In this document: positions 39,128 through 40,640 of the stretch, in pieces
How the letters are laid out: the number at the start of each line of letters is the position of its first letter
Position numbering within the stretch: position 1 is the first letter of the stretch
Assembly (NCBI GenBank): GCA_001603075.1
Contig: LVBB01000016.1
Coordinates: forward strand, 162,926 to 226,925
Direction: 5' to 3'
Length of the DNA: 64,000 bases
Origin: Phycisphaerales bacterium Planc_01
Lineage (GTDB): Bacteria; Planctomycetota; Phycisphaerae; Sedimentisphaerales; Anaerobacaceae
Program-made: the position numbers and the translations under genes
The notes under the pieces: generated by a model
Seen by the model: the letters and a program-made list of their open reading frames with translations, nothing else
Told to the model about the DNA's origin: nothing
Databases searched by the model: none

Positions 39128-39442
39128 TGCGGGCTCCTTGCGGATGCACCCACAACGGCCTTCGCCCGGCGACCGGCTCGCTGTCTGGCTGGGTTGGTCT
39201 TGCTCGTCCTTCTGTTACTTACCCGGCGCGAGTTCGAAATGGCGGTGGGGTCCGAGACGAACGGGTCTGTTAACTGGGCGAGGGCTGTTTACGAGAGAGT
39301 CCGAGAGTCCGGGCCGTTGCTCTCGCCGGGCGGGCGAGAACATGCAGGTTAACGGCCGCAACGTGGTGGAGGCGGTTTGAAACAGAGATCGCGGCCCGCG
39401 TGGGCGGGAACGCCGTAACCTTTTGCCGGCATAGAGATACGA

Positions 39443-39474
39443 AAACGCCCGGCCAGTTTCCTGGTCGGGCGTTT
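39443..39474. terminator. Strong terminator after the tRNA-Asn/GIY-YIG array
   Basis: AAACGCCCGGCCAG and CTGGTCGGGCGTTT form a 14-bp stem (one G-T) with a four-base loop. On the minus strand TTTTCG follows. It closes the transcript that starts upstream of tRNA-Asn and runs through both nuclease genes. Confidence 0.7.
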
Positions 39475-39518
39475 CCCTTAACTTGGACTGGCGAAGAAGT
39501 TCGCCAGGTTGATTTTGG

Positions 39519-39878
39519 CTCCCCGAGTAGGACTCGAACCTACGACCTGGCGGTTAATCCGCCTGCGGCGGACTCGCTCTACCGAAGGTCTCATCCAGCC
39601 ACGCCCGGCCTGCCCCTGACTTGAGCCAACTCTCCCTCTTCATCGCTGCCGACCGACAAGAGCACGCCTCGCTGTGAATGAGCTCCCAACGGCCAGGGTA
39701 CTTTCCGGTGAACCGATGCGCATTGCCGCTGGAGCCGTTGTGCTCAGACAACCTGCGCTGAAGATCCATCGTCTGGCCGGTATACCGCTTGCCGGCCTGA
39801 CGATTCAGCAGGACATACACCCAGTACATACGATCAGCCCCAGAAAAAGGCTTCGGCGCGGATCTTCGTCTCGAAAAC
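39519..39878 (-). repeat. Tandem unit A (360 bp): GIY-YIG gene plus tRNA-Asn 3' remnant
   Basis: This is the first of two directly adjacent 360-bp units differing at five positions. Each unit holds the 3' part of tRNA-Asn, the 15-base palindrome TCCGCCTGCGGCGGA, a short tRNA D-arm remnant and a GIY-YIG gene. The tRNA remnant of this unit (39519-39585) keeps the acceptor 3' strand, T arm and 3' anticodon strand. It lacks the GTT anticodon and the acceptor 5' half, so it cannot make a tRNA. Confidence 0.9.
39554..39829 (-). CDS. GIY-YIG nuclease superfamily protein, copy 1
   Basis: A 91-residue single-domain GIY-YIG protein. The first motif is VYVLL (residues 4-8), the second RYTGQT (15-20), then LQRRLSEHN with the conserved Arg, and a Glu in WELIHSEA that can be the metal ligand. 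Such domains nick or cut DNA in repair enzymes and homing endonucleases. The last residues (FGRASPPQAD) and the stop codon are encoded by tRNA-Asn-derived sequence and the palindrome. The protein is identical to copy 2. There is no good ribosome site, so expression probably depends on the tRNA transcript. Confidence 0.82.
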   Translation of the reverse strand: MYWVYVLLNRQAGKRYTGQTMDLQRRLSEHNGSSGNAHRFTGKYPGRWELIHSEACSCRSAAMKRESWLKSGAGRAWLDETFGRASPPQAD

Positions 39879-40238
39879 CTCCCCGAGTAGGACTCGAACC
39901 TACGACCTAGCGGTTAATCCGCCTGCGGCGGACTCGCTCTACCGAAGGTCTCATCCAGCCACGCCCGGCCTGCTCCTGACTTGAGCCAACTCTCCCTCTT
40001 CATCGCTGCCGACCGACAAGAGCACGCCTCGCTGTGAATGAGCTCCCAACGGCCAGGGTACTTTCCGGTGAACCGATGCGCATTGCCACTGGAGCCATTG
40101 TGCTCAGACAACCTGCGCTGAAGGTCCATCGTCTGGCCGGTATACCGCTTGCCGGCCTGACGATTCAGCAGGACATACACCCAGTACATACGATCAGCCC
40201 CAGAAAAAGGCTTCGGCGCGGATCTTCGTCTCGAAAAC
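39879..40238 (-). repeat. Tandem unit B (360 bp): GIY-YIG gene plus tRNA-Asn 3' remnant
   Basis: This unit is 355 of 360 bases identical to unit A. It abuts the intact tRNA-Asn on one side and unit A on the other, with its tRNA remnant at 39879-39945. The junctions match insertion of one unit into the tRNA gene followed by tandem duplication, or two successive insertions at the same tRNA target. Confidence 0.9.
39914..40189 (-). CDS. GIY-YIG nuclease superfamily protein, copy 2
   Basis: This is a 91-residue protein identical in sequence to copy 1, with the same GIY-YIG motifs and a tRNA-derived C-terminus. The four nucleotide differences from copy 1 inside the gene all fall on third codon positions and are silent. 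It begins 50 bases after the 3' end of intact tRNA-Asn and would be read from the same promoter. Confidence 0.82.
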   Translation of the reverse strand: MYWVYVLLNRQAGKRYTGQTMDLQRRLSEHNGSSGNAHRFTGKYPGRWELIHSEACSCRSAAMKRESWLKSGAGRAWLDETFGRASPPQAD

Positions 40239-40311
40239 CTCCCCGAGTAGGACTCGAACCTACGACCTAGCGGTTAACAGCCGCTCGCTCTACCGATTGA
40301 GCTATCGGGGA
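40239..40311 (-). tRNA. tRNA-Asn (anticodon GTT)
   Basis: The cloverleaf is complete on the minus strand: acceptor TCCCCGA/TCGGGGA, D arm GCTC/GAGC, anticodon stem AGCGG/CCGCT with loop CTGTTAA (anticodon GTT), T arm GTAGG/CCTAC with TTCGAGT loop, and discriminator G. CCA is not encoded. It is the target or parent of the two adjacent GIY-YIG units. Confidence 0.95.
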
Positions 40312-40315
40312 AAAA

Positions 40316-40345
40316 CACCCAGGCCGTGGACACCGCCCACGGCCT
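40316..40345 (-). terminator. Hairpin with T-run directly upstream of tRNA-Asn
   Basis: AGGCCGTGG and CCACGGCCT form a 9-bp stem; on the minus strand GGGTGTTTTT follows just before the tRNA 5' end. It lies between the predicted promoter and the tRNA, so it may insulate the tRNA from read-through, act as an attenuator or guide processing. Confidence 0.4.
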
Positions 40346-40365
40346 TGGGGACATTATCGTCGAAT

Positions 40366-40393
40366 AGGCTAACGATTTCAATATGTTTGTCAA
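40366..40393 (-). promoter_or_regulatory. Predicted promoter of tRNA-Asn and the GIY-YIG array
   Basis: TTGACA (40388-40393) and TAGCCT (40366-40371) are separated by 16 bases on the minus strand, about 55 bases before the tRNA. The rest of 40394-40640 holds nothing else that I recognise. Confidence 0.4.
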
Positions 40394-40640
40394 GATTTCT
40401 GTCGGGCGGCCGATAGGAAAACCAGGGCCGCGCTGGACAAGCGCCCTGCCATGGGGTAGTTTACCCCATTTGCGTATCTTTCGCCGGGCGGTTCGCTCCG
40501 TCGCGAATGCGTCGGGCGATCCCCCGGAGACCGGCGCCCGGTCGGACGGTGGAATCAGGGGAACATGAGGTATCAGTGGCGCATCATAAGCCTTTATTGG
40601 AACAATCTGGAATCATTCGTTTCATAGGTTAAGCAATCGC

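Follow-up and report, generated by a model that had tools for sequence, protein, structure and literature searches.

Small GIY-YIG endonuclease genes with partial tRNA copies as candidate mobile elements of planctomycete tRNA genes

In the 64,000-nucleotide stretch of Phycisphaerales bacterium Planc_01 DNA analysed in this study (contig LVBB01000016.1, positions 162,926 to 226,925; hereafter the window), it was found that a tRNA-Asn gene is followed by two copies of a small GIY-YIG endonuclease gene, each joined to a partial copy of that tRNA gene. On the minus strand, the intact tRNA-Asn(GTT) comes first and two head-to-tail units of 360 bp follow. A first-pass annotation made from the sequence alone had described this arrangement, with a 91-residue GIY-YIG gene, a palindrome, a D-arm remnant and the 3′ part of the tRNA in each unit, and the description was confirmed. 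The features are as follows.

40238..40312, minus strand: intact tRNA-Asn(GTT), called by ARAGORN; the sole tRNA called in the window.
39879..40238, minus strand: unit 1, 360 bp, with spacer, GIY-YIG gene, D-arm piece, palindrome and tRNA 3′ part.
39914..40189, minus strand: GIY-YIG gene copy 1, 91 amino acids; open reading frame (ORF) with a PF01541 match (E 1.2e-13).
39933..39945, minus strand: D-arm piece of tRNA-Asn in unit 1, also encoding part of the nuclease end; repeat search.
39918..39932, strand not applicable: palindrome TCCGCCTGCGGCGGA replacing part of the anticodon arm, unit 1.
39879..39917, minus strand: tRNA-Asn 3′ part of unit 1, from TTAACC to the 3′ end; 39/39 identical to the intact gene.
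39519..39878, minus strand: unit 2, 360 bp, in the same order as unit 1; direct repeats with a spacing of 360.
39554..39829, minus strand: GIY-YIG gene copy 2, 91 amino acids, protein identical to copy 1; ORF with a PF01541 match (E 1.2e-13).
39573..39585, minus strand: D-arm piece of tRNA-Asn in unit 2; repeat search, also present in the intact gene.
39558..39572, strand not applicable: palindrome TCCGCCTGCGGCGGA replacing part of the anticodon arm, unit 2.
39519..39557, minus strand: tRNA-Asn 3′ part of unit 2; 38/39 identical to the intact gene.

Each remnant runs through tRNA-Asn from its D loop as far as the 3′ end, the palindrome TCCGCCGCAGGCGGA standing where CGGCTG would be; the counterpart of its 3′ part within the intact gene is 40239-40277. 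The general form of the palindrome, TCCGCCNNNGGCGGA, occurs twice in the window, against a mean of 0.01 in shuffles. A search of the whole genome assembly (5.65 Mb) at E 1e-5 gave three tRNA-Asn matches, one full-length gene and the two remnants. Unit 2 was reported as 98% identical to unit 1 across 300 bases. The nuclease ORF runs into the tRNA-like sequence. Read directly from the sequence, ..GRAS comes from the D-arm piece and approximately PPQAD from the palindrome, and the anticodon-loop sequence TTAACC contributes the TAA stop codon. Thus, the earlier statement that the stop codon is tRNA-derived holds, and the statement that all of the last ten residues are tRNA-derived has to be given up because of the part encoded by the palindrome.

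Is this arrangement common in related bacteria? Loci were identified from similarity to the nuclease, across the order and the class to which the window planctomycete belongs, and each locus contributed one GIY-YIG gene to the scoring. At E 1e-5, 66 of 148 related genomes, the window's own included, gave a GIY-YIG match. In 49 of 110 GIY-YIG loci from the order and class, a tRNA or transfer-messenger RNA (tmRNA) gene was called within 250 bp on the same strand. For comparison, such a gene was called within 250 bp on the opposite strand in 1/110 and at 500-750 bp on either strand in 3/110. The targets of the 49 are tRNA-Pro (21), tRNA-Asn (16), tmRNA (4), tRNA-Glu (3), tRNA-Ser, -Gln, -Val and -Leu (one each), and L039 (1), where the called "tRNA" is a miscalled tRNA-Asn remnant and the intact tRNA-Asn has unread bases. 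Before the count of 110, two partial genes (L033 and L041) were dropped, as were L115, L199, L200, L213, L216, L217, L218 and L220, which are the same places as others. The 15 weakest matches and G027:C19:81567 were not fetched from the nuclease search. G017, G027:C294 and G035 were reached by another route and stand outside the 110, and the class-level search turned 30 places into loci, 23 of which were counted.

In 34 of the 49 tRNA-adjacent loci, the flank of the nuclease gene that faces away from the tRNA holds a piece of the same tRNA, scoring no lower than the 99% level of a different-isotype control; the control was first blurred by one tRNA of unknown type, and the final count excludes that row. 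An upstream tRNA usually goes with a 3′-part remnant, and a downstream tRNA-Pro goes with a 5′-part remnant starting from base 1 or 2. Thus, the tRNA-Pro layout is mostly mirrored: a 5′ remnant with a palindrome, then the nuclease gene, then the intact tRNA. By eye, six of eight tRNA-Pro loci inspected have a similar coding sequence upstream of the remnant, presumably PriA-like. This suggests an ancestral site at the remnant and a working copy that came with the element. Among 12 Pro-type genomes, 11 have their best tRNA-Pro(CGG) match (89-100%) in the copy that adjoins the nuclease gene, with full-length matches of 79-88% at other places. In G066, where the element lies at tRNA-Pro(TGG), the adjoining copy matches at 83% versus 84% elsewhere.

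The palindrome was assessed in all tRNA-Asn-like copies that could be matched across the anticodon arm. Forty-one distinct copies have the normal arm. The other 19 all have a palindrome, full or imperfect, in its place: four or more perfect outer pairs are formed in 17, three in one (TCCCGATGACTTCAGGA), and the L087 arm is palindromic inside a mismatched first base. Most of the palindrome-bearing Asn copies are remnants, and some are full-length tRNA-like sequences, such as the upstream copy of L028. In a second scan, 45 of 45 tRNA-Asn copies with a normal arm were complete genes (43 by script and two by eye). For tRNA-Pro, there are 14 normal arms and 12 others, and the latter are all palindromic with the form TCCCTNRGGGA. 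The arm patterns fix bases on both sides of the arm; the altered copies of L026, L029 and L030 are uncounted. Of 392 genomes sampled from the phylum, three had the exact tRNA-Asn/palindrome pattern, and these belong to the same order; the pattern is narrow, and the class has variants. Class-level palindromes vary in sequence yet stay palindromic (by eye, TCAGCCGCAGGCTGA in L215 and GCCCCTGGGGC in L210).

The 3′ part of the remnant is identical to the host's own tRNA at 39/39 bases in four of 15 remnant rows (L001 unit 1, L025, L031 and L036), and by eye this also holds for L030. Judging from these alignments, the anticodon arm in such remnants is not lost through general decay, because the 3′ part equals the host tRNA. 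When the four identical remnants were compared with the differing tRNAs of other hosts, no full match was obtained (best 38/39). Thus, the duplicated half may have been copied from the target rather than brought along. The first-pass annotation had the tRNA restored by an element that carries part of it; the restoration stands, and the carriage is less certain. The remaining 11 rows match at 16-38 of 39 bases (one compared with a tRNA having unread bases). These diverged remnants, in some of which the T loop holds a second palindrome, do not decide between a copied and a carried half, and two L028 remnant rows match another host slightly better than their own.

Within the genus of the window bacterium, whose related records are titled Planctomycetota, both near-empty and filled sites were found. 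The tRNA-Asn locus of G005 is 92% identical to that of the window up to the tRNA end and 91% identical again further downstream, and GIY-YIG was not detected there. GIY-YIG was likewise not detected beside the tRNA-Asn locus of the same-genus genomes G002 and G004. In contrast, G001 carries the element, with contigs that break inside it (L033/L053 and L055), and G003 has another GIY-YIG gene, split across two frames, at the corresponding place. Searching from the tRNA side, a GIY-YIG gene lies within 220 bp downstream on the same strand in six of 30 tRNA-Asn loci of relatives, the window's included; three of the 30 (L058, L073 and L074) had fewer than 100 bases downstream. The condition under which the first-pass annotation would have been refuted, a fixed arrangement lacking empty sites and other GIY-YIG/tRNA junctions, does not hold, given the three sites lacking a detected GIY-YIG gene and the many other junctions. 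The early proposal of a minimal element that sits at tRNA genes, keeps the tRNA whole and occurs repeatedly is supported.

The PF01541 GIY-YIG domain was found in 15 of 15 proteins examined, and Pfam gave no other domain in the window protein. Y5, Y16, G18, R26, H30 and E66, which I take to be the active site, are invariant across 15 aligned sequences. The structure model is a compact GIY-YIG fold (mean pLDDT 88), with lower confidence at the last residues, encoded by the tRNA and palindrome sequence. The closest solved folds are UPF0213 BH0048 and Slx1, followed by I-TevI (best E 1.9e-3, all E >0.001). By domain, conserved residues and fold, the window protein is a member of the GIY-YIG superfamily. 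The two coding copies in the window differ at four bases, four synonymous and none nonsynonymous; with about 65 synonymous versus 208 other sites, this corresponds by my own arithmetic to roughly P = 0.003 under neutrality. The dN/dS ratio is 0.23-0.46 in four of nine pairs of relatives with estimable dS. These are signs of purifying selection, as estimated from the coding sequences, on the nuclease protein.

In a tree of 91 GIY-YIG sequences, the target class requires 13 changes, against a mean of 47 in shuffles, and none of 200 shuffles was as low; L110 and near-copies are left out of the tree, and tmRNA loci other than L052 are labelled "other". In the main, target class goes with nuclease lineage. 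The window gene groups with those of G096 (family f4) and G110 (f7) with an SH-aLRT of 99, apart from other f1 genes, which suggests horizontal movement of the window's gene. The scan of genome contigs gave three loci only, and coverage beyond the phylum came to L054 and the viral-collection contigs L191 and L192. L054 is from Clostridiales; its GIY-YIG gene is preceded by a short 5′ piece (about 1898-1966) that by eye resembles a phosphofructokinase start, as if a protein gene had been the target. By eye, L192 has a GIY-YIG gene, then two pieces that read as tRNA-Ala remnants with palindromes, and what reads as an intact tRNA-Ala adjoins them on the opposite strand. A second scan of the viral collection, with a Pro-type protein as the query, gave no match. 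L190 (IMGVR_UViG_2713897301_000001), a 67% match, was rejected as a viral relative; compared by eye with L025, it seems identical to the G110 locus, truncated where a provirus was predicted to end. It ends at the GIY-YIG gene of what appears to be the G110 tRNA-Asn locus, and a serine recombinase-like ORF lies about 1.2 kb from that gene (by eye).

Taken together, it is fairly likely that each unit is a minimal mobile GIY-YIG endonuclease gene whose targets are tRNA genes, which stay intact because the half displaced by the insertion is duplicated. The endonuclease gene would insert into the tRNA-Asn gene, and the native 5′ part would be joined to one copy of the 3′ part, making the tRNA whole with the nuclease gene behind it. 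The displaced 3′ part would remain as the remnant, with the palindrome in place of the anticodon arm; its position points to the remnant as the native half. The nuclease, probably co-transcribed with the tRNA, would cut in the anticodon arm of the intact gene or close to it, and repair would copy the element in. The restored tRNA would still be a target and the remnant would not. More elements could then insert and push the older ones downstream into tandem stacks. The palindrome may make the remnant uncuttable, or it may act as an end signal.

Co-expression of this kind is plausible from the features around the array:

40353..40381, minus strand: promoter-like site TTGAAA-17-GATAAT upstream of tRNA-Asn, 10/12 matches.
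39443..39474, minus strand: inverted repeat 3′ of the array, terminator-like by eye; the terminator scan did not list it.

The scan of 39350-40480 found this one promoter-like site, against 0.3 expected in shuffles, and it is a candidate promoter for both the tRNA and the nuclease genes. Expression of the nuclease from the tRNA promoter, as originally proposed, is thus plausible. A terminator-like hairpin with a T run was also noticed between the promoter-like site and tRNA-Asn (40345-40321, minus strand), and by eye G005 has a similar sequence upstream of its tRNA-Asn.

Several observations weigh against this reading. No tRNA or tmRNA was called at the place in question in 61 of the 110 loci, although L001 (the window) and L032 fall among the 61 solely because the scored copy lies further out in the stack (in the window, 409 bp from the tRNA, and hence outside the 49). 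In 15 of the 49 tRNA-adjacent loci, no remnant reached the 99% level. The near-empty site of G005 is not cleanly empty: 404 bases lie between the tRNA and the next conserved flank, versus 1337 in the window, and the intervening stretches show no alignment except for tRNA pieces. The 91-residue protein is a catalytic domain alone, and I-TevI-like enzymes have a separate DNA-binding domain beside the catalytic domain. No relatives of the nuclease were found in phage or plasmid collections at E 1e-5. Between G001 and the window, there are two synonymous and one nonsynonymous differences in 40 codons, too few for an estimate of selection. Target specificity is not strict, since Asn needs four changes on the tree and Pro two, and the tree itself has 79 columns and many weak forks. 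Finally, tRNA bases 1-74 are identical in the occupied window genome (G000) and the empty G005. The idea that the restored tRNA is protected by an altered sequence was therefore rejected, and classical homing immunity is absent. The anticodon region, suggested early on as the target, is a putative one that fits the junctions; the restored tRNA still equals the empty-site tRNA. The missing immunity would explain why stacks form at the tRNA while the palindromic remnants are spared.

A less likely alternative is that the element is directed by hairpins. The nuclease would recognise stem-loops in single-stranded or extruded DNA rather than a sequence and would insert at their tips, the palindrome being its end signal, as a GIY-YIG counterpart of repetitive extragenic palindromic (REP) sequences and their transposase. 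The tRNA, tmRNA and 23S rRNA genes hit by these nucleases all encode stem-loops. In L109, L116 and L129, 23S rRNA genes are interrupted by a GIY-YIG gene flanked by inverted repeats. Judged by eye, the insertion place is presumably the tip of helix 68 as known from E. coli, which the inverted repeat on either side lengthens. In L110, a second place in G091 outside the Rfam comparison, the flanking repeat is the same as in the 23S insertions. In L052, the tmRNA 3′ end is followed by a GIY-YIG gene and then an apparent remnant with a palindrome, and four further loci lie 93-140 bp behind tmRNA with no detectable remnant. Overall, inverted repeats that equal or exceed the 99% level of a swapped-flank control flank 17 of 86 GIY-YIG genes; these include the 23S cases, and most are not near tRNAs. 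The control itself, however, scored 20 in one case out of 400, which exceeds most of the 17. Terminal inverted repeats were not found on the tRNA-type elements, the loci within 300 bp of a tRNA scoring at most 9 (control 95% level, 10). The GIY-YIG genes of L044, L045, L114, L117, L131, L140 and L160 lie between inverted repeats of 13-17 bases at seemingly intergenic places (by eye), and those of L124, L144, L155, L161 and L159 lie amid inverted-orientation repeats of type TGTCATTGCGAG or TGTCATTCCCGCG.

The palindromes also speak for hairpins: every non-normal arm, 19/19 for Asn and 12/12 for Pro, is palindromic, and they keep this property while differing in sequence. Slx1, one of the best fold matches, is a branched-DNA nuclease. 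The TCCGCCNNNGGCGGA type is dispersed in the window genome, with 91 sites against 3 for a reversed control. On the other side, palindrome number does not track the element. There are 178 sites in G096, 59 in G001 and 47 in G110; G041, which has the element, has 2, and G002 and G005, without GIY-YIG detected at tRNA-Asn, have 59 and 19; G003 has none. The palindrome as a simple marker of the element was rejected on the basis of G002 and, in the reverse sense, G041. Seventeen of the 91 sites form a dense cluster within 6.8 kb of the window genome (G000:C16:286230-293005). GIY-YIG enzymes are not known to transpose in this manner by themselves. Hairpin direction accounts better for the palindromes and the rRNA cases; I prefer the homing-like insertion into tRNA genes. 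A wider view, less likely than not, is that of a superfamily of bacterial one-gene GIY-YIG elements of about 300 bases that home to stem-loops in tRNA, tmRNA and 23S rRNA genes and dispersed palindromes. Each lineage would be tuned to one structured RNA gene, which would be kept functional through duplication of a half or extension of a helix, the left-behind copy having a palindrome for its anticodon arm, and the dispersed palindromes would be footprints or passengers of the elements. If so, GIY-YIG enzymes would be an unrecognised engine of bacterial palindromic repeats.

Local amplification without any inserting element is an unlikely alternative. The nuclease would cut near the tRNA, and the tRNA and nuclease genes would be duplicated in tandem through recombination at short shared sequences, as with the phage nuclease SegB, which in T6 is reported to promote tRNA-Tyr/segB amplification (available text of PMC13096335). 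Two nearly identical 360-bp units are what this predicts. However, clear traces of a second GIY-YIG gene were found in four of 23 Asn loci (L001, L024, L030 and L032), leaving 19 without a clear second copy; weaker traces with E 0.0008-0.01 were uncounted. L032 has two different GIY-YIG subfamilies stacked at one tRNA-Asn, so that of the two origins first considered for the window's copies, repeated insertion is favoured over amplification alone. Near-empty sites exist, and the gain of a first copy at an empty tRNA is suggested by G005 versus G000, a pair that is not clean. The same design also recurs at other tRNAs.

It is highly improbable that the nuclease acts at the RNA level, on tRNA-Asn or its precursor, with the remnant as a decoy or antitoxin-like RNA. 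The window remnant is predicted to self-fold (-23.1 kcal/mol), and the identity of four of 15 remnants to the tRNA over the 3′ part would suit a decoy. Related genes, however, lie inside 23S rRNA and beside tmRNA, some remnants are short 3′ ends without an arm (L070 and L126), and GIY-YIG enzymes are not known as ribonucleases. Least credible of all is a gene of the ordinary kind that happens to adjoin a tRNA and its decayed duplicates, with no element involved: fragments of tRNA genes are often seen near integration hot spots and several remnants have diverged, but the enrichment near tRNAs is specific in strand and distance, several loci have remnants identical to the tRNA outside the palindrome, and the design is mirrored at tRNA-Pro.

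If insertion with duplication of the displaced half is true, essential tRNA genes across many members of a bacterial class have been repeatedly parasitised by one-gene elements, whose answer to residing in a gene that the host cannot do without is to duplicate half of it. This would be a source of tRNA pseudogenes and of tRNA hot spots without an integrase, and it would provide a compact natural set of nucleases with defined tRNA targets. It would also raise a testable question: why do palindromes replace anticodon arms? No report of GIY-YIG genes with partial tRNA copies in bacteria was found among the matches listed in a search of titles and abstract starts of the open-licence literature.

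The likeness to known systems is partial in each case. Group I introns also interrupt the anticodon loop of tRNA genes, but here the tRNA is made whole by duplication and not by splicing. Group I introns (RF00028) in the anticodon loop of tRNA-Asn were found in G010 (L086, 1210-1476, plus strand) and G035 (L087, 1448-1722, minus strand). These introns carry an ORF resembling an HNH nuclease (by eye), and a search of the two genomes for tRNA-Asn found no uninterrupted copy. An intron at the window locus itself was rejected, with no RF00028 match at the gathering threshold where L086 and L087 match. The difference from integrative islands that target tRNA genes is that the 360-bp unit has no integrase or recombinase gene; it contains a 276-bp GIY-YIG gene and leaves no room for an integrase (neighbouring ORFs were outside the domain scan).

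In Candidate Phyla Radiation (CPR) bacteria, GIY-YIG ORFs have been described in rRNA insertions that resemble neither intron class, and the tops and bases of stem-loops are given as the usual places of rRNA insertions in general (available text of PMC11270868). The 23S insertions found here look alike; the main text of that paper contains no word beginning with tRNA. REP sequences are short dispersed palindromes with REP-associated transposases (available text of PMC2817692). The palindromes here are likewise short, dispersed in the genome and possibly tied to a small nuclease gene, but the enzyme is of the PF01541 family and not an HUH tyrosine transposase, and the link between palindrome and GIY-YIG gene is putative. 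For palindromic GC clusters in yeast mitochondria, the available text of PMC4478555 cites the suggestion that an endonuclease aids their mobility and itself favours an RNA route.

T6 SegB resembles the window nuclease in being encoded by a free-standing GIY-YIG gene beside tRNA genes, with tandem amplification of tRNA and nuclease genes; its authors considered it likely that this amplification uses microhomology shared by the 5′ region of the tRNA and the 3′ region of segB (available text of PMC13096335). SegB lies in phage tRNA regions, and remnants of tRNA halves with a replaced arm, the feature seen here, are unmentioned for SegB in that text. An altered own site and a separate DNA-binding domain, which go with SegB-type homing, were not found here.

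The closest idea is known for protein genes of fungal mitochondria, and here it would act on bacterial tRNA and tmRNA genes. The mobile ORFs (mORFs) of Allomyces atp6 and of Glomus atp6, atp9, cox2 and nad3 consist of an endonuclease ORF (LAGLIDADG, or GIY-YIG in Glomus atp9) and a duplicated end that restores the host gene, and the native gene end is left behind downstream (available text of PMC3630166). Both the duplicated restoring end and the abandoned native end were found in the present loci. The mORF host is a mitochondrial protein gene and the inserted end has diverged, in contrast to the bacterial tRNA or tmRNA host and the identity over 39 bases in four of 15 rows here. The palindrome in place of the anticodon arm is a feature of the remnants described in this study.

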